DNA from: Bacteroidales bacterium
GTDB lineage: Bacteria; Bacteroidota; Bacteroidia; Bacteroidales; JAIPAP01
Direction of reading: 5' to 3'
Assembly (NCBI GenBank): GCA_021740045.1
Contig: JAIPAP010000041.1
Coordinates: 1-35,343, forward strand
Length of the DNA stretch: 35,343 nucleotides
Below the pieces are notes generated by a model. That model was given only the letters and a program-made list of their open reading frames with translations, did not search any database and was not told the origin of the DNA. Below, piece by piece: positions 15,727 to 35,205 of the stretch (positions are counted from its first letter, which is position 1; every line of letters begins with the position of its first letter). The position numbers and the translations under genes were made by a program.

Positions 15727-15920
15727 TGTTGTAAATATTAAGGTTTAACGATATAACGTTTGGAATTCTTTTGAATTCACTTTCACAAATTAATAAAAAA
15801 AATCGATAACAAAATACTTAATTCTTCTAATAAAGCTGGTTTATTCCCGGAAAATATTGTTTTATATGGATTTACCCATTATTAATCCAAGGAAGGCACA
15901 ATAAAATAATGGAAAATACC

Positions 15921-15949
15921 TTGTAGTAACTGGAAATTTTATATTTTTG
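15921..15949 (+). promoter_or_regulatory. Promoter of the SRP RNA gene
   Basis: TTG (15921-15923), an 18-base spacer and TATTTTTG (15942-15949) form a Bacteroidota vegetative promoter. The -7 box ends three bases before the RNA's first paired bases. Confidence 0.75.
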
Positions 15950-15951
15950 CA

Positions 15952-16056
15952 GTGGGTAAGTCTTATGCGACCAGCTCCTGCTGAACTCCCCCAGGACCGG
16001 AAGGTAGCAAGGGTAAGCGGTTGAGCGGTGCGACATAAGTAACTTACCCATTTTTT
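15952..16056 (+). ncRNA. ffs: Bacterial small signal recognition particle RNA (4.5S type)
   Basis: This is the RNA core of the signal recognition particle that binds Ffh and targets membrane proteins to the translocase. The conserved apical domain is visible as GACCAGCTCCTGCTGAACTC followed by CCAGGACCGG and AAGGTAGCAAGGG, which carries the GGAA-type tetraloop and the asymmetric internal loop. The ends pair as TGGGTAAGT (from 15953) with ACTTACCCA (to 16050), closing a hairpin of about 98 bases. Six T residues (16051-16056) complete an intrinsic terminator. It has no Alu domain, as expected for the small bacterial type. Confidence 0.95.
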
Positions 16057-16214
16057 ATTGATATTGATTTTCTAAAACAGCCACTAATCCTGCGTTTCAT
16101 AAAACTTATTTAATTTTGACAAAGCATTCTAAATAAATCATTAGCATAGGCGGTTCATTTTTACTAATTTTATGCTGAGGAAGAAGAGGAAGTATTAACT
16201 AAAGATGATTGTAT

Positions 16215-16823
16215 ATGTTATTAAAAATTTATCCCGAAAACCCAAGTCCGCGTAAGATTAAGAAAGTTGTAGAGTGTTTAAGTGACGGAGGGGTTATTAT
16301 TTACCCAACTGACACCGTTTACGGATTGGGGTGTGACATTTTTCACCAAAAAGCAGTGGAGCGTATTGCACGGATAAAAGGGATCAGGAAAGACAAAGCA
16401 AATTTTTCCTTCATCTGCTATGATCTGAGCCAGTTATCCGATTTCACCAAACCCATAAGTAATGATGTGTTCAGGTTGATGAAAGATAAGTTGCCCGGGC
16501 CATTTACGTTTATCCTGAATGCAAATAATAAAGTGCCAAAGCTATTCCAGAGTAATAAAAAAACGGTGGGTATCAGGATACCGCAAAATCCCATTGCCAG
16601 CGAGATCATAAAGGAGCTTGGCAATCCCATTGTTTCCACTTCGGTTAAAGACGATGACGAGATACTGGAATACTCTACCGATCCGGAGGCTATGCATGAA
16701 CGGTTTAAAAATGAAGTCGATATCGTGATCGACGGCGGTCATGGCGATAATATAGCTTCAACGGTAGTAGACTGTACCAAAGATGAAATTGAAATTATTC
16801 GAGAAGGAAAGGGTGTGTTTTAA
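16215..16823 (+). CDS. Sua5/YciO/YrdC family protein (threonylcarbamoyl-AMP synthase-like)
   Basis: This YrdC-domain protein of 202 residues starts at ATG 16215 (MLLKIYPENP); a TTG two codons earlier is the less likely alternative. The motifs GGVIIYPTDTVYGLGCD (residues ~27-43), RIARIKGIRKDKANFSFICYD, LPGPFTFIL, TVGIRIPQNP and PIVSTSVK line the known ATP/L-threonine/bicarbonate pocket. The family makes threonylcarbamoyl-AMP for the t6A37 modification of ANN-decoding tRNAs. It is the short form without a Sua5 C-terminal domain. YciO-type paralogues look similar, so the exact role is not certain. It lies next to tRNA-Lys(TTT), itself a t6A substrate, although that may be chance. Confidence 0.87.
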   Translation: MLLKIYPENPSPRKIKKVVECLSDGGVIIYPTDTVYGLGCDIFHQKAVERIARIKGIRKDKANFSFICYDLSQLSDFTKPISNDVFRLMKDKLPGPFTFILNANNKVPKLFQSNKKTVGIRIPQNPIASEIIKELGNPIVSTSVKDDDEILEYSTDPEAMHERFKNEVDIVIDGGHGDNIASTVVDCTKDEIEIIREGKGVF

Positions 16824-16849
16824 CAACATACAAATTTGAACAGGAGGGC

Positions 16850-16883
16850 ACAGGGCGATCTATAAAGATTCGCCCTGTTTTTT
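16850..16883 (+). terminator. Intrinsic terminator of the Sua5-like gene
   Basis: ACAGGGCGA (16850-16858) pairs with TCGCCCTGT (16870-16878), leaving an 11-base loop, and a run of T follows. It lies 27 bases after the stop codon. Confidence 0.85.
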
Positions 16884-16943
16884 GATATTCAGTCCATAAC
16901 ATGATTGCGGCAAGAAAATTGCTATTTTTTACGTTGAGGGACT

Positions 16944-16973
16944 TGGTTAGTTAAAATAAAGGTGCTACTTTTG
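16944..16973 (+). promoter_or_regulatory. Promoter of tRNA-Lys
   Basis: TTG (16944-16946), a 19-base spacer and TACTTTTG (16966-16973) match the Bacteroidota consensus. The tRNA starts 23 bases after the -7 box, allowing a short 5' leader for RNase P. Confidence 0.7.
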
Positions 16974-16996
16974 CACCCCGTTACACGATAGGAAAT

Positions 16997-17106: not shown

Positions 17107-19083
17107 TCAAAAAATCGCCATCAGCAATGCAAAAGAAACTCTTACTCCCATGTAATACTGAAAACCTTTACGGTCTTCGAAGGCCAGGTTCCAGTCGTTG
17201 GTGGAGGTTCTTATCCCGTTCATTTCCAGGTTGAGTTTTGAATTTACAGGGATCACATAATTAGCTCCTACGATGCCGGTGAGCATGCCTTTAGTGAAAT
17301 CAAGGCTGAATTCGGCGCCGGGCGCTATGTAATGGCGTTGAGATTTCTTGCTGTCATCATTTCCTTCACCCGAGCCTTCAATGTATTCTTGAATGTAATT
17401 TATTCGCGGATGCAAAAATCCAAAACGGAAGAGCTTCATGGGATATGTCAAACCCACTTCCAGTCTTTTTAAATGACAGGAATCACTGTTTACACCTGCT
17501 AACATAAAACTGTTATCGACCTTGAGCTTTTCGGAAGTGGCAAAACCAATCATAATCAGATTGAAAAATTGAAACCTTCCGCCCTCACCACCCAATCCGC
17601 CGCTGTAATTCAGATAATCAAAAGTTAAAACATCTTTTCCGTTAAACCGATGCCTGAGTTTATAATGCAGGCTTTGTTCCTTGCTAGTGGCATCAAAATG
17701 CCGGATCATGGGATAATGCGAGCTCTTGCGAATTTTCACTTTATGGCGGCCTTTATCCATATAGCCTTCGAACATGGATGTTTTCCTGATGTGGTCATCA
17801 ATCAATAAATTGGCGCCACCCGGATCGGTGGAGATCTTTACATGATATTCCTTACGGATCAATGCGTAATGATAGTCCGTTTGCTCATCAACAACCAAAG
17901 TTTCCTTTAATGATTTGTAATCAGGGTGATGGATTTCTATATTATGTTGACCCACGAGGAGTTCAGTACTTTGCGGCGCCTCTCCCAGCTCTTTGCTATC
18001 GATGATAATAGTAGCGTCTTCCGGTTTGGTATGAATAGTGATCATTCGCGACAAAGGCAGATAACCGGTAACTGCATTTTCTACATCACTTGCAACAAAA
18101 ACCTCTTCATTAAAAGTGCCATAGCCCTCCTTTTTCATGGTAACCTGGTGCGGCCCGGTGATCAGGCTGTATTTTTCGATGGGCGTCGAACCGATCTCCT
18201 TGCCATCAAGCAATACCCTGGCGTTGTCAATATTGGCATCGAAGCTACAAAAGGCCATTATGGGTTCGGGATAGATTTCAAGTTTTGTCAACGTTCCGGC
18301 TTTTATTTCAATGGAATCCTTATAGGATTCGTGATGATCTTGTATTATGGTAAGTTCATGCTTACCAATATCAACGCCATTTTCAACCCCCGATAGTTTC
18401 ACATAGGCTTTTCCTACCGGTTGTCCGTCCAGTAAGATCCGGGCTTCATTATTGGTTGTGACTTCCAGGTTTCCCCAGAGCGGTGAAAGTTCCAGGTGAA
18501 TTTCTTTTGATTGATCGGGATCGATGCTGATAATGGTATCTTTGGGTTCATAGCGCTGAGCGGTAAAGGTGAAGTGATAAGGCCCCGACCGGTACTGATT
18601 TAAATCACAAGGGGTTTGAGCGCTAAAGTCAGGCAAACCGTCAATTTTTACCTTGGCATTTGTTGGAGAGGAGGTAATGGTTAAATCTCCTTTGCCGATC
18701 ATAGTGTACTGCCGGGTTAGTTCCATATGAAATACATCATAGGAATTCACCGCCAGGGGAATGGTATAATACAATTTAACAAAACCTTTGCGGCTGATCT
18801 CCAACTGTTGCTCACCGGGCGAGATATAAACCCAGTATTCCCCGGTTTTGAATTCCACATCACCCACCACGCCAACGCCTGAGCTAAAACTCAGTCCTTC
18901 AATATCGGTCCTGATCTTTACCAATGCACAGGCATCGCCGTTGATGTCTTTCCGGTCAAATTTGCGGGCTGCCAGGTCGTTAGGGTCCTTTTCAAAAGCA
19001 TCCACCCGAAACTTAACAGCCCTGAGCATTATGCTGAAAATAAGTAAAAAACACGTAAGCAGTGTAATTCGGAGAAAAAGCAT
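17107..19083 (-). CDS. Secreted PEGA-repeat protein with C-terminal barrel-like domain
   Basis: This 658-residue protein has a hydrophobic N-terminal export segment (1-22). Residues ~25-120 hold a domain with DINGDACALVKIRT, GEYWVYISPGEQQL and RKGFV, shared with the PEGA protein at 33181-35205. About five PEGA-type repeats follow between ~130 and ~475 (TITSSPTNAKVKIDG, ARILLDGQPVG, ARVLLDGKEIGSTPI, TIHTKPEDATIIIDSKELGEAP, ISTDPGGANLLIDD). PEGA repeats are surface or cell-envelope beta modules. The last ~180 residues alternate polar and aromatic residues and end in Phe, consistent with a membrane barrel; that is inference. It begins an envelope-rich region reaching 35.2 kb. Confidence 0.82.
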   Translation of the reverse strand: MLFLRITLLTCFLLIFSIMLRAVKFRVDAFEKDPNDLAARKFDRKDINGDACALVKIRTDIEGLSFSSGVGVVGDVEFKTGEYWVYISPGEQQLEISRKGFVKLYYTIPLAVNSYDVFHMELTRQYTMIGKGDLTITSSPTNAKVKIDGLPDFSAQTPCDLNQYRSGPYHFTFTAQRYEPKDTIISIDPDQSKEIHLELSPLWGNLEVTTNNEARILLDGQPVGKAYVKLSGVENGVDIGKHELTIIQDHHESYKDSIEIKAGTLTKLEIYPEPIMAFCSFDANIDNARVLLDGKEIGSTPIEKYSLITGPHQVTMKKEGYGTFNEEVFVASDVENAVTGYLPLSRMITIHTKPEDATIIIDSKELGEAPQSTELLVGQHNIEIHHPDYKSLKETLVVDEQTDYHYALIRKEYHVKISTDPGGANLLIDDHIRKTSMFEGYMDKGRHKVKIRKSSHYPMIRHFDATSKEQSLHYKLRHRFNGKDVLTFDYLNYSGGLGGEGGRFQFFNLIMIGFATSEKLKVDNSFMLAGVNSDSCHLKRLEVGLTYPMKLFRFGFLHPRINYIQEYIEGSGEGNDDSKKSQRHYIAPGAEFSLDFTKGMLTGIVGANYVIPVNSKLNLEMNGIRTSTNDWNLAFEDRKGFQYYMGVRVSFALLMAIF

Positions 19084-19149: not shown

Positions 19150-19764
19150 TTATCTATATTTTTTAGGTTGAAAATCTTTTGGATTGATAACGGTAATGTT
19201 TTCGCCCGATTGGGTTAAAACCAGCAAACCATGTTTGGCAGCCAAGTCATAGCTGGTTTTGGGGATGCTCATCCCGGCTATGCCACCAATGATCTCCTTG
19301 TCGCTGTATTCTTTAAACAATGGCTTAAAGTTAGGTAGCTTACGATCAATAAAGTCTTCCACGTCGTCAGGATGGACTTTGTATTTGACTTCGATAACTA
19401 CGATTACTTCGCTATTGTGTAAAACAATGTCGTATTCCCCTTGCAGTTTCCTGGATGTTCTGGCTAGCTGCGATACTTTATCATACTCAATGCCGAAAAT
19501 TGAAGTTCTTTTCTCAAGCCCTCTTCTGAAAAACTCCTCAGCCACATCACGGCTGTTTTCCGAAACGCCGCCATAAAGTTTTGCTAAACGGTCGAGCTTA
19601 CGATCGGTTTCTTTAAGTTGCTTATCAGTTTCCTGCATCTTTTTATCCGTCTCTTTAAACATCTTATCGGTTTCCCGGAACATCTGCCACACTTTCTCAA
19701 ATGTGAGTGGCTGGTTATATTCCTCCAGTGGTTCGCTGGCCCGGTTGTTATCTTTTTTGCTCAT
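19150..19764 (-). CDS. Coiled-coil PD-(D/E)XK nuclease-like protein, ETDK-repeat paralogue 1
   Basis: The protein is about 204 residues from MSKKDNNRASEPLEEY. This start is chosen because the -7 box at 19792-19799 places transcription near 19785, downstream of the more distal in-frame ATG at 19794. Residues ~30-60 are four heptads of the type KETDKKM, predicting a short coiled coil. The C-terminal half has EYDIVLHNSEVIVVIEVKYKV, the D-x(n)-ExK core of PD-(D/E)XK nucleases. Such proteins are often multicopy and are annotated as DUF3782-like or resolvase-like without a proven function. The first ~60 residues closely match the paralogue at 27439-28071, but the nuclease halves differ strongly. 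No signal peptide is present, so it is cytoplasmic. Confidence 0.75.
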   Translation of the reverse strand: MSKKDNNRASEPLEEYNQPLTFEKVWQMFRETDKMFKETDKKMQETDKQLKETDRKLDRLAKLYGGVSENSRDVAEEFFRRGLEKRTSIFGIEYDKVSQLARTSRKLQGEYDIVLHNSEVIVVIEVKYKVHPDDVEDFIDRKLPNFKPLFKEYSDKEIIGGIAGMSIPKTSYDLAAKHGLLVLTQSGENITVINPKDFQPKKYR

Positions 19765-19791
19765 GCTTATCTCTTTATTCAATAACCTTAT

Positions 19792-19799
19792 CAAAGATA
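19792..19799 (-). promoter_or_regulatory. -7 promoter box of ETDK paralogue 1
   Basis: TATCTTTG, preceded by GCAATAATCG. The same 18 bases occur upstream of paralogue 2 (28099-28106), so the box is conserved between the copies. No clear TTG is visible at -33. Confidence 0.6.
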
Positions 19800-25442: not shown

Positions 25443-27284
25443 ATGCGACGTTTTTACCTGGTTCTCATAGGATTCGTTTTATTGTGTTGGTCTAACATTC
25501 AGGGGCAGGATATGGATGAGATCAACCGCATCAGAAATGATGAACAATACATTTGGGGATATGGGGAGGGAGATTCTTATACCAAGGCTGCCAACAATGC
25601 TCTCGAAAATCTTATCACCAAAATTTCGGTCACTGTGGAAAGCGATTTTAAAAACGTGGTAACCGAAGAGGGGGATGATTTGCATGAGTACACCAAATCG
25701 GTGATCAAGACCTACAGCAATACCAAACTTCAGAATACCAAAGAGATTTGGAAGGAAATAGACGGCAGGAACATGGTTTTACGCTATATGACGCGTACCG
25801 ATATGGATAAGGTGTTTGAAGACCGCAAAACGAAGATCATGCAATATGCCCGGCAGGGTATAAAAGCTGAAAAAGAGTTAAGCATTGGCGATGCCCTGCG
25901 TTATTACTTTTGGTCGTACCGCCTACTGCGCAGTCACCCGGATTATAAAACACTTTGTATGGACGATGAAAATGAATTGAAAGGCTTGTTGTTTATTGCA
26001 CTTGAATCGCGGCTAAACAGCGTACTGCGTAACATCGATATTGGCATCGACCAGGTGAAACTACATGAAGAGCAGGATAAAAAGGATATCATTCTGGATT
26101 TTACCTATCAGGATAAGCCTATTGATTATATCGATTACCAATATCATACCGGCACCTCCATGTCGGCCCTTAATACGGCAAAAGACGGGATGGGGCTGGC
26201 CGAACTTGCTGGGGCCGGGAAAAACATGGATCGCCTACAGCTCTTCATTAAATATGATTATAAAAACAAATGCAGTTTCGATAAGGAATTGTATGACGTG
26301 ATGACCAATACGCCGCCACCACCGCAATTCAGCAAGGCAAAGCATCAAATCAGGCTGGAACCGGCTTTGCAGAAAGAAAGCCTGGCAGAATCGACATCCA
26401 AGGAAGAAGAAACCTTTGAAACTCACACCGAATATGGTGCCGATTCAGTGAATTATGGAACCATTATAAATGATGTAGTAAAAGCGATCAGGACAAATCG
26501 ACATGAAAACATAAAAGCCTATTTTACCATGGATGGCTATGATATGTATGAAAAGCTGATAGCCAATGGCCATGTGTATATACTTGATATAAAGGACAGC
26601 CTTAACATTTTCGAGGTGAATGATGAAGTGATGGTACGTAGTGTGCCCATGTCGTTTCATTATCAAAACAACAACCGGAAGTTTATTGAAGATGTGGTGT
26701 TCATCTTTAACAAAAAAGGGAAGATCGATGCACTATCCTTTGCCCTGAGCGATAAAGCGATTTATGATATCGTGAGTAAGCCGGAGCGCTGGGGGACCGA
26801 TGAGGAAAAATACCAGATCATTAAGTTCATGGAGAACTACAAAACGGCTTATTGCCTTAAGCGCCTCGATTATATTGAATCGGTATTTGCCGACAATGCA
26901 TTGATCATCATTGGGCATGTGCTAAAAGAAGCCGAACCCATCGACGGTATGTACACCCGCATTGGCAGCAATGAACGGGTAAAATACATCCGCAAAACCA
27001 AGCAGCAATACATCGGTGATTTACAACGGGTTTTTCAAAGCAATGAATTCATCAATATTCATTTCGAAGACAATACGGTGGAGCGCACCAACAAGCTGGA
27101 AGACAAAACCTACGGCATACAGATCGCCCAGCATTATTATTCCACCAATTATGCCGACAAGGGCTACCTTTTTCTAATGGTCGATCTGAACGACACCACC
27201 AATCCCAAGATCTACGTCCGTTCCTGGCAACCCGAGAAAAATCCCGATGGCAGCATTATCGGGTTGAAGGATTTTCATTTTTAG
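25443..27284 (+). CDS. Secreted LPP20/FlgT-like protein with C-terminal NTF2-like domain
   Basis: This protein of 613 residues has a signal peptide (1-22, NIQGQ). The N-terminal domain (~28-130) contains NDEQYIWGYGEGDSYTKAANNALENLITKISVTVES, an LPP20/FlgT-type start matching the divergent lipoprotein in kind. Residues ~130-330 form a helical and then beta-rich region, and ~345-440 a conserved-looking alpha/beta domain. Residues ~455-590 (KFMENYKTAYCLKRLDYIESVFADNALIII...) look like an NTF2/SnoaL-type fold. No catalytic motif is evident. It is probably a periplasmic or surface partner of the neighbouring envelope operon; that is inferred from position and shared domain type. Confidence 0.72.
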   Translation: MRRFYLVLIGFVLLCWSNIQGQDMDEINRIRNDEQYIWGYGEGDSYTKAANNALENLITKISVTVESDFKNVVTEEGDDLHEYTKSVIKTYSNTKLQNTKEIWKEIDGRNMVLRYMTRTDMDKVFEDRKTKIMQYARQGIKAEKELSIGDALRYYFWSYRLLRSHPDYKTLCMDDENELKGLLFIALESRLNSVLRNIDIGIDQVKLHEEQDKKDIILDFTYQDKPIDYIDYQYHTGTSMSALNTAKDGMGLAELAGAGKNMDRLQLFIKYDYKNKCSFDKELYDVMTNTPPPPQFSKAKHQIRLEPALQKESLAESTSKEEETFETHTEYGADSVNYGTIINDVVKAIRTNRHENIKAYFTMDGYDMYEKLIANGHVYILDIKDSLNIFEVNDEVMVRSVPMSFHYQNNNRKFIEDVVFIFNKKGKIDALSFALSDKAIYDIVSKPERWGTDEEKYQIIKFMENYKTAYCLKRLDYIESVFADNALIIIGHVLKEAEPIDGMYTRIGSNERVKYIRKTKQQYIGDLQRVFQSNEFINIHFEDNTVERTNKLEDKTYGIQIAQHYYSTNYADKGYLFLMVDLNDTTNPKIYVRSWQPEKNPDGSIIGLKDFHF

Positions 27285-27438: not shown

Positions 27439-28071
27439 TTAGTATTTCTTCGGCTCAAAAGCAGCCGGGTTGGCAATTTTGATCAATCCCTCCCCGGCGC
27501 TTTTCAATACAAACAAGCCTTTGCGTTGGGCGTATTTATCGGAGTATTCATCATATTTAATGGCGGCCACAGCGCCATAAAAATTCATATCGGCCCAGCG
27601 GGGAAAATATTTGCGGATCTTTTCCAGCTTTTCAAGATGCCACTCCACAAATTCAATCCTCATGGTGGTTTTTACCTCGATAACCACTACCTCACTTCCA
27701 TTGGCAAGAAGAATATCGAATTCGGCTGCCATTTTTTCATCGGGCAACTCAACTTCTACATTGCTGTAGGTTTGATTGATATCAATATCTCTTTCCTTAA
27801 ACAGCTTAAGGCAGGAGGGTTTGATAAGCGCCTCCATCAATTTGCCCCATTGCGTTGTAAACAGATTGGATAACTCCTTGATCTTTTTATTCGTTTCTTT
27901 GAACTGCCTATCGGTTTCCTGGAACTTCTTATCTGTTTCCTGAAACTTCTTGTCTGTTTCTTTAAACTGCTTATCGGTTTCCTGGAACATTTGCCAGACT
28001 TTTTCAAACGTCAGTGGCTGTTCATATTCTTCCAAAGGTTCGTTGGCCCGGTTGTTATCTTTTTCACTCAT
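27439..28071 (-). CDS. Coiled-coil PD-(D/E)XK nuclease-like protein, ETDK-repeat paralogue 2
   Basis: The protein is about 210 residues from MSEKDNNRANEPLEEY. The more distal ATG at 28101 lies inside the promoter box, so it is rejected. Five heptads of the type KETDKKF occupy ~30-66, one more than in paralogue 1. The C-terminal half carries AEFDILLANGSEVVVIEVKTTM, the D-x(n)-ExK nuclease core. The heptads and the leader are nearly shared with 19150-19764, while the nuclease halves align only at the core, so the family looks modular. Repeat elements flank the gene on both sides. The function is not known. It is cytoplasmic, with no signal peptide. Confidence 0.75.
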   Translation of the reverse strand: MSEKDNNRANEPLEEYEQPLTFEKVWQMFQETDKQFKETDKKFQETDKKFQETDRQFKETNKKIKELSNLFTTQWGKLMEALIKPSCLKLFKERDIDINQTYSNVEVELPDEKMAAEFDILLANGSEVVVIEVKTTMRIEFVEWHLEKLEKIRKYFPRWADMNFYGAVAAIKYDEYSDKYAQRKGLFVLKSAGEGLIKIANPAAFEPKKY

Positions 28072-28098
28072 AATGAAGCCTTTATTTAATAACATGAT

Positions 28099-28106
28099 CA
28101 AAGATA
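28099..28106 (-). promoter_or_regulatory. -7 promoter box of ETDK paralogue 2
   Basis: TATCTTTG preceded by GCAATAATCG, identical to the box of paralogue 1. Its position rules out the ORF's most distal ATG. Confidence 0.6.
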
Positions 28107-29245: not shown

Positions 29246-29380
29246 CCAATAACCCCCATCCCGTTCAATGGCTTACTAAGGATGGAAGGGAGTGGAAAAT
29301 CTTTTATTATCTCAAACACCACTAAAATAAGTTTATACACATCCTTAAAAACACTTAATTCATAATACAATGCCATACTG

Positions 29381-29410
29381 AAAAAATTTCGATCCCGCCT
29401 TAGGCAGGAT
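29381..29410 (-). terminator. Terminator of the first FN3-lectin lipoprotein gene
   Basis: On the minus strand the hairpin ATCCTGCC/GGCGGGAT (one G-T pair) is followed within four bases by a T-rich stretch. The sequence corresponds to the terminator of the neighbouring copy at 31197-31228, with changes that keep the stem paired. Confidence 0.7.
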
Positions 29411-29458: not shown

Positions 29459-31078
29459 TTAAAAAGCCCGGACGGCCCGGACACGGAAATTGGTAACCTT
29501 ACTGCCATCGTCCTGATAGCAACTGCCGAAACCCTGTAGCCAGGCGCCATATGAATTGACCTCCGAAGAACTCCAATAGTAGTTGGCCGCAAAGCCTCCG
29601 ATGCCTGCCAAATGACGGTTTTCGCACATCAGGTTGAGCTCGTCTTTTGAAGGCAAAAACCAATCGCTGTACCCGTTAAGTTCCAGCTCATCACAAATTC
29701 TGGCAGCAATACCGCTTTCGCTGCATACTGCTACAATGGCAGCTGTATTTGCAGCGCCATCTCCTACGCCGGTACCGGTGCCCCCAACTGTAATGCCGTA
29801 GCATCCCCATCCCGGAATAGTCTGCTGGTCACTTTCGGCACATATTAGGCCACCGCCATTGTCGCCCAAATGAAATATAACGCCACCTCCTCCTATCATA
29901 CCTATTTCAGCAGTCACATCTATTTCTGTCTTTATTGAATTAAAAGATTTGTAAAAGGAGTATACCATGAAAGAATAATCATTATCTAACAAATCAATTG
30001 AATTATCCGTAATATTCACTTCACTTGCGTTTAATATAATAAAATCATTCTCCCATACCCCATCATTCACCTTCCGATCAATTTTAAAGCCTTGATGGCC
30101 GGTGGCGTTGTACGCCCAGTTTAAGGTAACTGAAGTGGCGGAGTTGGCTGTTATTTCCAGCTTTTCCGGTGGAGGTATCGTTGCATCAAAATCGTTTTCA
30201 GCATAGGAAGAGTTATATTGGCCAACATAGGTGCTTACGCGGTAATAAACCTGGGTGTTAAGGTCAAAATCGTTATCTTGGTATTGGGTTTCGGTAACCA
30301 AAGCAATTTCTTCCCAATTGCCTCCTTCATATTTGCGTTCAATCCTAAAACCATGTTCGGTATTGCTATTGTCACTCCATTCCAATGTTACTGTAGTAAT
30401 AGGATTTCTTACGATTTGTAAATCAGAGGGAGGAATTAACGCTGCATCAGTACTTGTTAAGATTTGTTCCGATTCATAACCTTCGTAATAGGCATACAAA
30501 CGATACTCAACATTTAATCCTTTTGTGGGGTTTATAAAGACATTGGTATCAATGTATTCAGTTTGGTTGGCCTCAACTTTTCCATAAGCTGTTTTCCATT
30601 GCCCATCCCCGGTTTTACGGTCAATCTTAAAGCCTTGTTCACCGGTGGAATTATCCGTCCAGCTTAGTTTATAGCTTATTTCGGATAACCTTTCTGTGAG
30701 GAAGTTGGAAGGTTCCGGGATAGTAGAACTAATTTCCAATGCTTCTTCCGTTGTCACCCGTTCATCAAACCTAGTTTTAATGCGGTAAGAATGAGTTTTA
30801 TCCAGTTCAATATCGGTATCAATCCATTCATACGTATTACTGCTAACGGTAGCAAACGCATTCTGCCAGTTTTCCTCGCCGGTCTTTTTATCAATCACAA
30901 AGCTTTCGGCATTCTCGGCATCGCACTCCCAGGTGAGTTTCTTTTCAAAAATACCCAGGTGCTCCACTTGCAGGTTGTAGGGCGCCAGGCTGTCAATGTT
31001 TACCTGCGGGTCGTAGGTGCGCTCGCAACTACTTAGCGCTATTATGCCTATAATGGTAAATAAAATGCTGTATTTCAT
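29459..31078 (-). CDS. FN3-repeat lipoprotein with DUF1566/Lcl C-terminal variable domain (probable DGR target 1)
   Basis: This protein of 539 residues has a lipoprotein signal ending IIALSSC (lipidated Cys18). Four fibronectin type III-like repeats follow at about 28-118, 122-213, 217-303 and 306-390, with repeated SWTDNSTGEQGFKIDRK-type strands. The C-terminal DUF1566/Lcl domain (~395-539) has GGLICAESDQ, AANTAAIVAVCSESG, LNGYSDWFLPSKDELNLM, YWSSSE and the ending RVRAVRAF. This domain has the C-type-lectin-like fold used by known DGR target proteins. The final ~40 codons differ from the tandem copy at positions 1 and 2 of scattered codons, as expected for retroelement diversification. It is probably anchored on the outer membrane, with the lectin tip outermost and the FN3 repeats as a stalk. 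Acidic residues after the Cys fit surface export. Confidence 0.85.
   Translation of the reverse strand: MKYSILFTIIGIIALSSCERTYDPQVNIDSLAPYNLQVEHLGIFEKKLTWECDAENAESFVIDKKTGEENWQNAFATVSSNTYEWIDTDIELDKTHSYRIKTRFDERVTTEEALEISSTIPEPSNFLTERLSEISYKLSWTDNSTGEQGFKIDRKTGDGQWKTAYGKVEANQTEYIDTNVFINPTKGLNVEYRLYAYYEGYESEQILTSTDAALIPPSDLQIVRNPITTVTLEWSDNSNTEHGFRIERKYEGGNWEEIALVTETQYQDNDFDLNTQVYYRVSTYVGQYNSSYAENDFDATIPPPEKLEITANSATSVTLNWAYNATGHQGFKIDRKVNDGVWENDFIILNASEVNITDNSIDLLDNDYSFMVYSFYKSFNSIKTEIDVTAEIGMIGGGGVIFHLGDNGGGLICAESDQQTIPGWGCYGITVGGTGTGVGDGAANTAAIVAVCSESGIAARICDELELNGYSDWFLPSKDELNLMCENRHLAGIGGFAANYYWSSSEVNSYGAWLQGFGSCYQDDGSKVTNFRVRAVRAF
29462..29581 (-). other. Putative DGR variable region 1
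   Basis: The last ~40 codons of the gene, from just before YWSSSE to the stop. Against the second copy they share fixed positions (WSSSE, AW, Q, F, Q, K, RVRAVRAF), while the intervening residues vary freely. The end, coding RVRAVRAF, is GC-rich and nearly identical in both copies. That is where an initiation-of-mutagenic-homing site would lie. Confidence 0.75.
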
Positions 31079-31085
31079 GTTTATT

Positions 31086-31155
31086 GATTTTAAATTGTAG
31101 ATTTACGATTTTAGATTGAAAAAAGGCTGCAATCATCAATCGTCAATCTTTTTAC
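31086..31155. repeat. 7-base array with inverted partner upstream of lipoprotein 1
   Basis: The units GATTTTA, AATTGTA, GATTTAC, GATTTTA and GATTGAA (31086-31120) are followed by AAAAGGCTGC and opposite-sense AATCATC/AATCGTC units. The array starts eight bases upstream of the first lipoprotein's start codon and so lies in its 5' leader or promoter region. It also occupies most of the 171-base gap between the tandem copies. Confidence 0.75.
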
Positions 31156-31196
31156 CCATCCTTAAAAACACTCAATTCATAATACAATGCCATACT

Positions 31197-31228
31197 AAAA
31201 AAAAATTCGATCTTGCCTAAGGCAAGAT
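31197..31228 (-). terminator. Terminator of the second FN3-lectin lipoprotein gene
   Basis: On the minus strand the perfect hairpin ATCTTGCC/GGCAAGAT with a three-base loop is followed by CGAA and nine T residues. It lies about 20 bases after the stop codon. Confidence 0.8.
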
Positions 31229-31249
31229 ATTCGTTTAATGGTTAAATGG

Positions 31250-32902
31250 TTAAAAAGCCCGGACGGCCCTGACACGTATATAGTAGTCCTTACCGTAGTT
31301 GTACTGACCGCCATCGCTGAAACTCTGGCCCCAGGCGATGCTAGAACTGTACTCCGAAGAACTCCAATAGACGTTGTCTGCAAAGCCTCCCATGCCGGCC
31401 TGATGCAGGTTTTCGTACATCAGGTTGAGTTCGTCTATTGAGGGCAAAAACCAGTCGCTGTAACCGTTAAGTTCCAGCTCATCGCAAATACGGGCAGCAA
31501 TGCCGCTTTCGCTGCAACCAGCTACAATAGCTGCTGTGTTCGCGGCCCCGTCACCTATGCCGGTACCGGTCCCCCCAATTGCAGTGCCCCAGCAACCCCA
31601 TTCTGCATCAGTATGCTGGTCACTTTCGGCACAAACCAGTCCACCGCCTTGACCGTCCAAATAAAAAACAATACCTCCCGCATATACTTCGCCTATATCT
31701 GGAATATAAATGCTTTTCTCCATTTTCGCAGATTTATATCCTTCTAAATAAGCATAAACCCGATAGGTGTATTCATTATTTACCAAATCTACATTTTCAT
31801 CACTGAAATTGGTGGTTTCGGAATCAACCACAGCAAAATCATTTTCCCATGCCCCATCATTCACCTTGCGGTCGATTTTAAAGCCTTCATGGCCGGTGGT
31901 GTTGTAATCCCAGTTTAAGGTAACAGAAGAGATGGAGTTGGCTGTTATTTCCAGGTTTTCCGGTGGGGGTATCGTTGCATCAAAATCACTTTCAACAAAT
32001 GAAGAATGGTATTGGCCAACATAGGCGCTTACACGGTAAAAAACCTGCGTGTTCAGGTCAAAATCCGTATCCTGGTAGTGGGTTTCTGTAACCGTAGCAA
32101 TTTCTTCCCAGTTGCCTCCTTTATATTTTCGTTCAATCTTGAATCCATCTTCTCCATTGCTATTGTCCGTCCATTGCAATGTTGCTGTGGTAATAGGATT
32201 TCTTATGATTTGTAAATCAGCGGGGGGAATTAATGCTGCATCAGTACTTGTTAAGATTTGTTCCGATTCATAACCTTCGTAATAAGCGTACAAACGATAC
32301 TTAACATTTAATCCTTTTGCGGGGTTTACAAAGACATTGGTATCAATAAATTCGGTATGGTTGGCCTCAACTGTTCCATAAGCTGTTTTCCATTGCCCAT
32401 CCGCTGTTTTACGGTCAATCTTAAAGCCTTGTTCCCCGGAGGAGTTATCCGTCCAGCTTAGCTTATAGCTTTTATCGGATAGCTTTTCCGTTTGGAAGTT
32501 GGAAGGTTCCGGGAAAGCTTCCTCAAATTCTACACTAGTTTTTTGCGTTACCTGCTCATCAAACCTGGTTCTAATGCGGTAATAATGTGTTTTATCCAAT
32601 TCAATATCAGTATCAATCCATTCATGTGTATCGCCACTAACGGTGGCAACGGCATTCTGCCAGTTTTCCTCACCGGTCTTTTTATCAATCACAAAGCTTT
32701 CGGCATGCTCCGCATCGCACTCCCAGGTGAGTTTCTTTTCAAAAATGCCCAGGTGTTCCACTTGAAGGTTGTAAGGCGCCAGGCTGTCAATGTTTACCTG
32801 CGGGTCGTAGGGGTTATCGTATTTCCTTTCTTCACAGGTGGTTAGCGTTACTATTGCAATGAGGGAAAGTAGAATGCTGGGTTTTGGTTTTATGTGTTTC
32901 AT
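31250..32902 (-). CDS. FN3-repeat lipoprotein with DUF1566/Lcl C-terminal variable domain (probable DGR target 2)
   Basis: This is a tandem paralogue of 550 residues with the same layout: lipoprotein signal (VTLTTCEERK, lipidated Cys23), four FN3-like repeats (~34-400) and a DUF1566/Lcl domain (~405-550) ending RVRAVRAF. Two acidic residues directly follow the Cys, consistent with surface lipoprotein export. The DUF1566 core (GIGDGAANTAAIVAGCSESG, DWFLPSIDELNLMYEN) is almost the same as in copy 1, while the ~33 residues after WSSSE diverge. The copies lie head to tail with an offset of about 1.8 kb, and their 3' flanks are also homologous, so they arose by tandem duplication. Transcription is leftward, with a separate terminator for each copy. 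Confidence 0.85.
   Translation of the reverse strand: MKHIKPKPSILLSLIAIVTLTTCEERKYDNPYDPQVNIDSLAPYNLQVEHLGIFEKKLTWECDAEHAESFVIDKKTGEENWQNAVATVSGDTHEWIDTDIELDKTHYYRIRTRFDEQVTQKTSVEFEEAFPEPSNFQTEKLSDKSYKLSWTDNSSGEQGFKIDRKTADGQWKTAYGTVEANHTEFIDTNVFVNPAKGLNVKYRLYAYYEGYESEQILTSTDAALIPPADLQIIRNPITTATLQWTDNSNGEDGFKIERKYKGGNWEEIATVTETHYQDTDFDLNTQVFYRVSAYVGQYHSSFVESDFDATIPPPENLEITANSISSVTLNWDYNTTGHEGFKIDRKVNDGAWENDFAVVDSETTNFSDENVDLVNNEYTYRVYAYLEGYKSAKMEKSIYIPDIGEVYAGGIVFYLDGQGGGLVCAESDQHTDAEWGCWGTAIGGTGTGIGDGAANTAAIVAGCSESGIAARICDELELNGYSDWFLPSIDELNLMYENLHQAGMGGFADNVYWSSSEYSSSIAWGQSFSDGGQYNYGKDYYIRVRAVRAF
31253..31372 (-). other. Putative DGR variable region 2
   Basis: This is the counterpart of 29462-29581. 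After WSSSE, 33 of 99 bases differ between the copies: 17 at first, 10 at second and 6 at third codon positions. In the ~100 bases of coding sequence just upstream (31418-31517) only 10 differ, mostly silently. Many differing codons are explained by a common AAC or AAT template codon (for example GTC/TAC, AGT/GAT, GGC/TAC, TAT/GGT). Confidence 0.75.
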
Positions 32903-33180: not shown

Positions 33181-35205
33181 TTACAATTTAAAATTAACAC
33201 CCAGCACCAATCCATCCCCATAGGGCTTTGCTGTTATGTCTAATTTGTTCTTAACCTTGCCTTGCTTAACAGCGTGAATAATAGCCGGCACCAAACAGGC
33301 TGCTCCTACACCATAACCGATCAGGGAAAGCTGATCTTCCTTGTCTACTTGCTCACGCAAGTCGATGGCATCCTGGGTCACATTGGTATCTTGATATTCG
33401 TCATAATGCTTGTCGGCAGATTGCTGGAAATAGGCTCCGGCTCCTGCACTTAATATGGCTGCCGCACCCCATACTAGTTTTTCGCGTTTGTGTTTGTTAA
33501 ACGTTTGCTGCAAGCTTCCTTTATAGGTCTGCATTTGAAAGGTGAGCTTCTTTTGCTCGTTGGCTTTTACCGTAATTGCCCTGGTGTTATCCAGAAAGCC
33601 GTCTTTTTTCAGGGTAATGGTATAATCGCCTATGAGCAAGGGCAGCACCGCCGGTGTGGTCTTTTTTTGCTCTTGGTTATTCACATAGATTTCGGCGCCA
33701 CGGGTTTTGCGGGGTTCGGAGAAAATGGACACGCTGCCTTGTATGGGTTGCGGGTTTAAGTTTAGGGTCCGGGTATCACCAACGGATAAATAGATTTCTT
33801 CTTCGTCATCCAGGTGTTTGTCTCGTGTGGCTTTAAACATATAGCGGCCGGGCTGAAGCTTGGCCTTGTATTGCCCGGTGCCTACCCGCTCATTGTTTTG
33901 GTAAATGGTGGCTCCGGGCGCATTCACTTCCACGGTGCCAAAATCTTGGGTGAGCACGATCATCTTTTCGGTGGTTTGCTCATTGTTAATGGTTAGGCGT
34001 TCGGTAACTTCGTTCCAGAGGTCTTTGGTTACGCGCAGTTCATAGTTGCCGGAAGCCAGGCGGTTTTCGGTGTGGGGCGTGGTCCCTATCATTTCGTCAT
34101 CCAAATACACCCGCGCTCCGCTGGGTTCGGAGTTGACCGTTAGGCTGCCAAAGGCCGGATCGAGGGTGAGTTTAGGGCTTATATCATCGCCATCCGCTAT
34201 GGTAAATTCCAGGGTTTCGCTGTGGTATAAGTCCATTTCGGCGCGCAGGGTGTGGTTGCCGCTTTCAATTTTTTGGCGGGGGATGGGCGCTGTGCCCAGT
34301 GATTTTCCGTCGAGGAAGATTTCGGCTCCACTTGGTTCGGAATTTACGGCTATATAGCCAAAGCGGGGCGTTAATTTTATACGCGGCAATTCTTTGGTAT
34401 CACCTTCGGCCAGAGAAAAGGTAGCGCTATAGGTATGATAGAGATTCTTTTTAAGCGTAAGATCGTATACCCCGGCAATTATCTGATCGGTGTATGGCGT
34501 TACCCCCACCTTTTGGTTATTGAGCAACACATCGGCACCGGCAGGCTCGGACGTGATGGTGATAATACCGGGGAGCTTCATGGTGGTTTGTTCCTGTCCT
34601 TCCTGCAAGCGAATGTCGATCACCCGTTCTTCTTCCACGGTGATGTTCCTATTAACCTCACTATAGCCTTCTTTGCTATAGGTAAAGGAATAATTGCCTT
34701 TGGGAAGCTGGAACTCGGCCACCGTTCCGGTGGATTGCACCGGGGCAACGCCACCCCTGGAAATGTACACCTGGCTTACATTAAACCGGAAGGTGGTTTT
34801 GATGAGGTCTTCATCCAGCGCCTGTTTATCGCCGGTACCGGTGAGCTCCAGCACATAAACCGTGGAGGACTCAATGGGCATGGGAAAGGAAAAGGTCTTG
34901 GCAATAAAGCCTTCTTTCACAAATTTCAGTTGTTGCTCACCGGGCGAGACATACACCCAATAGTCGCCTTCTTTATAACTAACATCGCCAACCGCTCCAG
35001 CATTGGGTAAGATAGTCACACCGCTCAGGCCGGTGCGCACCTTGATCAAGGCACATTCCTCGCCATTAATATCGGTTCGTTCATAACGAATAGCCGCAAT
35101 ATCATTTGGCGCCTTATAAAAATTCAATACTTTGAATTCGCCGGCTGATAAGGCCGTTGGTATCAGCAGCAGGGTGATAGCGAGCAGGATAAAATTACGC
35201 AGCAT
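33181..35205 (-). CDS. Secreted multi-PEGA-repeat protein
   Basis: This protein of 674 residues has a signal peptide (1-21, ALSAG). The N-terminal domain (~23-120) contains DINGEECALIKVRTGLSG and GDYWVYVSPGEQQL and is shared with the protein at 17107-19083. Five or six PEGA-type repeats follow (~140-560), the clearest being ITSEPAGADVLLNNQKVGVTPY, VNSEPSGAEIFLDGKSLGTAPI and VNSEPSGARVYLDDEMIGTTPH. The C-terminal part (~575-674) has two hydrophobic stretches (WGAAAILSAGAGAYF, LIGYGVGAACLVPAIIHAV) and a short beta tail, unlike the barrel-like end of the other PEGA protein. It is probably an envelope-anchored scaffold. PEGA repeats have no enzymatic role. It closes the envelope-rich region. Confidence 0.85.
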   Translation of the reverse strand: MLRNFILLAITLLLIPTALSAGEFKVLNFYKAPNDIAAIRYERTDINGEECALIKVRTGLSGVTILPNAGAVGDVSYKEGDYWVYVSPGEQQLKFVKEGFIAKTFSFPMPIESSTVYVLELTGTGDKQALDEDLIKTTFRFNVSQVYISRGGVAPVQSTGTVAEFQLPKGNYSFTYSKEGYSEVNRNITVEEERVIDIRLQEGQEQTTMKLPGIITITSEPAGADVLLNNQKVGVTPYTDQIIAGVYDLTLKKNLYHTYSATFSLAEGDTKELPRIKLTPRFGYIAVNSEPSGAEIFLDGKSLGTAPIPRQKIESGNHTLRAEMDLYHSETLEFTIADGDDISPKLTLDPAFGSLTVNSEPSGARVYLDDEMIGTTPHTENRLASGNYELRVTKDLWNEVTERLTINNEQTTEKMIVLTQDFGTVEVNAPGATIYQNNERVGTGQYKAKLQPGRYMFKATRDKHLDDEEEIYLSVGDTRTLNLNPQPIQGSVSIFSEPRKTRGAEIYVNNQEQKKTTPAVLPLLIGDYTITLKKDGFLDNTRAITVKANEQKKLTFQMQTYKGSLQQTFNKHKREKLVWGAAAILSAGAGAYFQQSADKHYDEYQDTNVTQDAIDLREQVDKEDQLSLIGYGVGAACLVPAIIHAVKQGKVKNKLDITAKPYGDGLVLGVNFKL

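Follow-up and report, generated by a model that had tools for sequence, protein, structure and literature searches.

The contig JAIPAP010000041.1 of a Bacteroidales bacterium (GenBank assembly GCA_021740045.1), analysed here over its whole length of 35,343 nucleotides (positions 1 to 35,343 of the forward strand, hereafter the window), carries two tandem lipoprotein genes that differ in a short block near their 3' ends. Was this block written by a diversity-generating retroelement (DGR), and is it still being written? The two genes are probably the orphaned targets of a DGR that has decayed: frozen, already diversified, lectin-tipped lipoproteins with stem-loops and truncated avd starts behind them. 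The locus looks like a former DGR target. It is not classified here as a DGR, because the reverse transcriptase (RT), the template repeat and an intact avd gene were all searched for and not found.

Gene 2 (31250..32902, minus strand) encodes a lipoprotein with an FN3-like stalk (fn3, 28.7 bits against a cut-off of 25) and a C-terminal lectin-like domain, Lcl_C (PF07603, formerly DUF1566). Gene 1 (29459..31078, minus strand) is a tandem copy of the same architecture and aligns to gene 2 over its full length, with an fn3 match of 18 bits that is under the cut-off. Both C-termini exceed the Lcl_C cut-off of 34.9 bits, gene 1 with 36.9 and gene 2 with 43.1. The sequences LTTC in gene 2 and LSSC in gene 1 are presumed to be the lipoboxes. 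The genome holds two Lcl_C genes of this kind. On the basis of an AlphaFold2 model (predicted local distance difference test score 86), the target domain is predicted to have a C-type-lectin-like fold. The best matches of the model among solved structures are 8q4e, the C-terminal domain of Legionella Lcl (Z 12.5, root-mean-square deviation 2.5 over 108 residues), and 4eps (Z 12.4); the window domain also matches Legionella Lcl 8q4e by sequence profile (E=3.9e-15). Passages of PMC4159848 present Lcl_C as the Pfam domain most frequent among DGR targets of human microbiomes, with 47 proteins. Passages of PMC6642488 name it the commonest DGR target domain, and cite an older survey of complete genomes in which another domain was commoner. 

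The variable block spans codons 507-531 of gene 1 (VR1; 29486..29560, minus strand) and codons 518-542 of gene 2 (VR2; 31277..31351, minus strand). It is followed by a constant 3' end coding RVRAVRAF and the stop (29459..29485 in gene 1 and 31250..31276 in gene 2, minus strand), in which 1 of 27 bases differs. This end stands at the place of the initiation of mutagenic homing sequence of DGRs and may have had that role; allowing up to 3 mismatches, it is found at these two sites of the genome only. The count given in the preliminary description, 33 differing bases out of 99 with 27 at codon positions 1 and 2, was reproduced for codons 507-539 of gene 1 against 518-550 of gene 2, as was the near-identity on either side, with YWSSSE identical in every base and the last eight codons one base apart. 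In the 25-codon core there are 26 mismatches at positions 1 and 2 and 6 at position 3, compared with 130 and 131 in codons 25-495 (Fisher p=6.6e-4). By the score used, the most skewed 25-codon windows of the gene pair all overlap the block, and a chance origin of the skew was rejected on the grounds that it peaks there.

Two further claims about this block did not hold. Third positions had been described as spared, whereas they differ by 24% in the block, compared with 19% for the FN3 stalk and 34% for the part of the Lcl_C domain that lies upstream of the block; it is codon positions 1 and 2 that are raised, and the third-position rate is ordinary for the gene. Nor is change confined to the block, as a hinge at codons 331-397 is equally divergent (86 of 201 bases versus 32 of 75), with differences that are mostly at third positions. 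As to the proposal that most variable codon pairs fit AAC or AAT template codons, six core pairs have unlike third bases and so cannot both go back to a single such template. These third-position differences matter because no non-adenine position should differ between two blocks newly copied from the same template.

Templates were sought among relatives. The comparison set comprised 295 genomes of the order, 74 of which contain a relative of the Lcl_C domain, and 120 stretches were fetched from the matches in these 74, chosen by rank and by closeness to an RT, some of them being RT regions. Complete DGR cassettes with the same Lcl_C target are present in the order (L086-L091), arranged as target, stem-loop, avd, template repeat and RT. 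Several of the Lcl_C relatives adjoin an RT with the motif IGNLTSQ, the SQ of which we take to be a mark of DGR RTs. In L086-L091 the template repeat lies between target and RT, and all mismatches in the matched 90 bases fall on template adenines. With small variations the templates read SSxE-NNNNN-AW-N-Q-N-F-NN-G-N-Q-NNNN-K-NNTN-Y-VRAVRDF, which is the register of the window, with asparagine codons at the window's free residues. The last residues of linked targets are VRAVRAF or a close variant, and most of their templates finish with VRAVRDFK. Most linked targets are followed by a short stem-loop such as ACCGC-GAA-GCGGT, by TCGA and by a T-run, after which avd starts with MALYYDL or MALYYEL; the two avd checked from linked cassettes are both bAvd (PF22296). 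The 12 Lcl_C-type RTs among 15 aligned DGR RTs of the order come from different families and have 57-78% identity to the first RT.

In one genome (G241) the arrangement is apparently in trans. Contig C6 carries the template and the RT (L099). Two other contigs, C48 and C18, carry targets (L181 and L098) that match this template at 35 and 33 of 37 non-adenine positions; one of the targets has non-adenine changes. In another genome, a close relative of the window domain (L085, G209:C150) is about 10 kb from a DGR RT (15911-16990); a scan of seven G209 loci revealed no template for this relative.

The window blocks fit these foreign templates. Over block codons 1-24 (72 bases), taking the best of seven foreign templates for each block, VR2 is identical to the template of L086 at 32 of 35 non-adenine and 17 of 37 adenine positions (p=2.9e-5), and VR1 to that of L091 at 28 of 37 and 13 of 35 (p=1e-3). 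Over 81 bases, VR2 has 22 of 28 mismatches to its best foreign template on adenines and 6 elsewhere, and VR1 27 of 37 and 10 elsewhere; the window's own template was not found. In a scan of the collected loci the template repeats were the best adenine-only sources of both blocks, the blocks themselves aside, and a template profile matches VR2 at E=7e-9 and VR1 at E=0.027. VR2 is the better preserved block and VR1 the drifted one.

Fixed residues favour a fit of this kind, so a second test looked only at the third bases in the variable codons. Of 13 such sites, three are mostly T in the templates and ten mostly C. Linked targets keep this rule at 62 of 65 sites (template row L170 excluded), VR2 at 12 of 13 (p=0.001) and VR1 at 10 of 13 (p=0.076); shuffling third bases inside the window tails gives p=3.4e-4 for both jointly. 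Scoring covered gapless, non-identical tails, which were 60 rows from 116 domain hits, including 3 templates and 1 misfiled RT-less row; gapped tails such as L085, L088 and L089 fall outside it. The six rows of linked variable regions include one true template (L170, ETNSNN...), the group from genomes with a DGR includes L183, whose contig carries a template, and the RT-less group of 38 rows includes the misfiled L156, since an RT fragment was found in its genome (G046). The rule is not a fixed property of the domain, as the 38 RT-less tails range from 1 to 13, with 8 at 12 or above. Among viral loci (the best 80 of 417 relatives, 27 with a readable tail), the 13 gapless tails score 2-12 of 13 with a mean of 5.3, and none of the loci with the 27 readable tails has a template (at most 4 non-adenine mismatches) or an RT match within it. 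Passages of PMC12875486 report that the RT of BPP-1 gives differing amino-acid spectra at AAC and AAU, a possible reason for the conserved AAC/AAT pattern.

Other candidate marks were tried and dropped. The amino-acid contrast between AAT and AAC sites is seen in unrelated tails too. NNY codons alone are undiagnostic, with 14 of the 38 RT-less tails reaching 15 of 17. Fourfold-site bias splits the groups (28 of 29 in linked targets, or 26 of 27 with L170 excluded, and 140 of 219 in RT-less tails) but does not separate the window on its own (11 of 13 versus 73 of 127 upstream, p=0.075). Lcl_C tails from viral contigs, and from genomes that lack a DGR RT, share the register and have a similar VRAVR-type end; register and 3' end alone are weak grounds for a DGR reading.

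The sequence behind the two genes carries further remains of a cassette. Stem-loops stand just 3' of both variable regions, with the layout seen behind linked DGR targets. Stem-loop 1 (ATCCTGCC-TAA-GGCGGGAT, then CGAA and a T-run) is at 29392..29410 on the minus strand (-11.6 kcal/mol, z=-1.9), and stem-loop 2 (ATCTTGCC-TTA-GGCAAGAT, then CGAA and a T-run) at 31210..31228 on the minus strand (-10.5 kcal/mol, z=-2.3). The two differ by a paired change that preserves the stem, and the stem therefore appears to have been kept since the duplication, for retrohoming or for termination. Next comes the start of avd. Behind gene 1, MALYYELSVFKDVYKLILVVFEIIKDFP (28 codons; 29293..29376, minus strand) corresponds to the first 28 of the 113 residues that avd has in the Lcl_C cassettes of the order and is followed by unrelated sequence. 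Behind gene 2, MALYYELSVFKD (12 codons; 31158..31193, minus strand) corresponds to residues 1-12, then G and a stop, so that the reading from 31193 downwards is MALYYELSVFKDG-stop. An avd protein profile finds the first stub at E=2.7e-9 in the window (E=1.1e-6 in the whole genome) and the second at E=0.02; the first has no Pfam match of its own. A DNA model of the pre-avd region with its stem-loop and avd has exactly two matches in the window at E<=10, at 29470-29292 (E=2.8e-20) and 31261-31151 (E=1.9e-13).

The rest of the machinery was not found in the assembly, which is 3.9 Mb in 161 contigs, 97% complete and not closed. A DGR-RT profile, for which 15 DGR RTs from the order were used, the majority linked to Lcl_C or of the Lcl_C type, has no match at E<=1e-20. 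It matches 45 of the 295 genomes at this threshold, an upper count of DGR genomes since some matches are non-DGR RTs. The sole PF00078 RT of the genome belongs to a group II intron (L001, G000:C125:41188-41856; TIGR04416, 418 bits). A BLAST search of the whole genome with the VR1 region returns the sister gene (75% identity, E=1e-28) and otherwise nothing under E=0.17, and a foreign template returns nothing under E=0.8. The template core with up to 3 mismatches occurs zero times in this genome, which is the only use made of that noisy pattern: 72 of the 295 genomes match it, many through low-complexity sequence, and a reversed control is similar in some. No relic of an RT or template was found elsewhere in the window, also with the template profile. 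No intact avd was found in the assembly beyond the truncated starts of 28 and 12 codons. The whole-genome avd search gave no other credible avd, with one of its three further weak matches examined: that on C86 (E=3e-4) is a four-helix-type protein amid genes unrelated to DGRs, and the other two, on C157 and C42, are weaker still. The assembly search proposed in the preliminary description thus yielded neither template nor DGR RT. An active DGR in this genome was rejected on the same absences, and of the original DGR proposal it is the ancestry that survives, through the fit of foreign templates, the stem-loops and the avd starts, and not current diversification.

The ancestral cassette would have consisted of the target gene, a stem-loop, avd, an adenine-rich template repeat and an RT. 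The template would have been copied into the 3' end of the lectin domain with its adenines misread, which would have randomised the first two positions of the codon at some 17-19 sites in the C-type-lectin-like domain. A tandem duplication of target gene, stem-loop and avd start may have followed, and the rest of avd, the template and the RT would then have been lost, or are at least outside this assembly. The outcome would be two different binding tips on lipoproteins, presumably exposed at the surface and binding ligands, that drift like ordinary genes.

Several points weigh against this reading. With templates taken one at a time, p ranges from 4e-4 to 0.27 for VR2 and from 0.01 to 0.62 for VR1, and each block fails with some of them; VR1 by itself reaches no better than p=0.076 in the third-base test, and the third-base rule was derived from the templates after the window had been seen. 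The stem-loops with their T-runs may be plain terminators. The second avd stub is short when taken alone, with its protein E-value of 0.02. Among RT-less tails with a third-base score of 11 or more, 9 of 11 have no avd or stem-loop match behind them; such matches are found in 0 of 13 tails scoring 8 or less, and the two marks therefore coincide only in part. With a genome that is 97% complete in 161 contigs, absence is no proof. VR2 also resembles a foreign template closely at the non-adenine positions, as would be expected after recent rewriting.

This last point bears on the first alternative, in which the two genes are live remote targets, served by a template and RT in sequence missing from the assembly or on a mobile element present in the population; the stem-loop and avd stub would then be the part of the cassette that accompanies a remote target. 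Judged by its sequence, VR2 might have been rewritten recently, given its match at 32 of 35 non-adenine positions. Remote targets seem to exist in the order, as in G241 (C6 versus C48 and C18), and an avd stub also stands behind an Lcl_C tail in a genome with DGR RTs (L161). According to passages of PMC12875486, stem-loops are an important element of BPP-1 retrohoming, and the window stems still pair through their paired change. Against this stand the lack of any RT, template or full avd in a 97%-complete assembly and the drift of VR1. Where all seven templates have a base other than adenine, the genes differ at 5 of 31 positions, and where all have adenine, at 14 of 22; at all five of the former it is VR1 that departs, carrying no template's base. 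Both blocks can therefore not have been rewritten lately from one template. We regard live remote targets as rather unlikely.

The broken set of target, stem-loop and avd stub may instead have arrived by horizontal transfer, in a lineage that never had a working cassette. The spread of the Lcl_C-type RTs across families is consistent with movement between them, and VR2 is nearer to foreign templates than are most of the Lcl_C tails examined. The pair has, however, diverged in place, by 19-34% at third positions, and no mobile gene was noticed beside it, no search having been aimed at such genes; this origin is very improbable. Ordinary positive selection on the lectin binding face, with no DGR at any time, would agree with the same register and the same varying residues in Lcl_C tails without a detected DGR, but selection on the protein sets no template pattern in third bases and gives no account of the stem-loops and avd starts behind both genes, the latter already contradicting it, and it deserves almost no credence.

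Across the order, a full-length avd without stops is present in 13 of 16 genomes with an RT-profile match and in 0 of 9 without one (p=1e-4), counting genomes whose avd match starts at residue 1 or 2; three of the nine (G000, G004 and G157) were viewed in sequence, and contig ends could mimic truncation in the others. The count omits one weak full-length avd match in a genome without RT (G041, E=4e-6), which is probably a protein of 23S-IVP type; its inclusion gives 1 of 10 (p=8e-4). Stubs of avd behind Lcl_C tails are found in L199 (residues 1-47), L172 (1-31) and L161 (1-22). In G004 the target and template are kept with an avd containing two stops, and neither the 4.9-kb contig nor the RT searches showed an RT. 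At this locus (L312, G004:C22, 84-1798) target, avd and template stand together, with an unrelated protein gene after the template; it represents a DGR partway through decay. DGR decay with survival of the targets looks recurrent in the order, though contig ends may account for part of the pattern.

Large DGR surveys find DGRs through the RT and miss targets that are not adjacent to it, according to passages of PMC8144416. Searches of open-licence PubMed Central text for orphaned or broken DGRs returned no paper with a title or abstract opening that describes this. Tentatively, and with slightly more doubt than confidence, we propose that DGRs of this order repeatedly lose template and RT and leave behind fixed, diversified lectin genes; even with no DGR present, these could be recognised by the 'watermark' that the template left in their third bases, by a stem-loop and by an avd stub. 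If this is true, the orphans are an inherited repertoire of binding proteins made by retroelements, larger than counts of RT genes suggest. The locus offers sequence marks by which RT-less targets can be sought, namely the third-base template pattern, the stem-loop and the avd start. It suggests that DGR-made diversity can outlast the machine, and both the transience of DGRs in such bacteria and the time for which their products are retained become testable.

Elsewhere in the window, a 17-base sequence, ATTGTAGATTTACGATT, occurs 9 times with 2 or fewer mismatches (0.02 expected) between 27315 and 31110, always in or near the intergenic stretches around these genes, and is a dispersed repeat. 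Large PEGA-domain proteins flank the region (17107-19083 and 33181-35205), and an LPP20-type protein is encoded at 25443-27284. The proteins at 19150-19794 and 27439-28101 resemble each other in their heptad-like N-terminal parts, and neither matches a Pfam family at E<=0.001.

The closest known systems are the DGRs with DUF1566 (Lcl_C) targets. As these are described in passages of PMC4159848 and PMC6642488, the window has in common with them the target domain, the block at the 3' end, the codon logic, the stem-loop behind it and an avd start in place. It differs in that no template, RT or intact avd was found and in that non-adenine sites have drifted between its two targets. The order's own Lcl_C cassettes (L086-L091) share the register, the avd N-terminus and the stem-loop layout with the window but keep template, avd and the RT with IGNLTSQ. 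The remote variable proteins, or 'VP homologs', of cyanobacteria are, like the window genes, target-like lectin genes away from an RT; in passages of PMC7517822 they are tied to a DGR of the same genome, whereas no DGR was found in the genome of the window. With the C-terminal domain of Legionella Lcl (8q4e) the likeness is one of fold and sequence profile. The BPP-1 DGR provided the RT query and served in the comparison of avd families. Its avd is of the same family as that of the order (PF22296), but its target is a phage tail, unlike the lipoproteins of the window.

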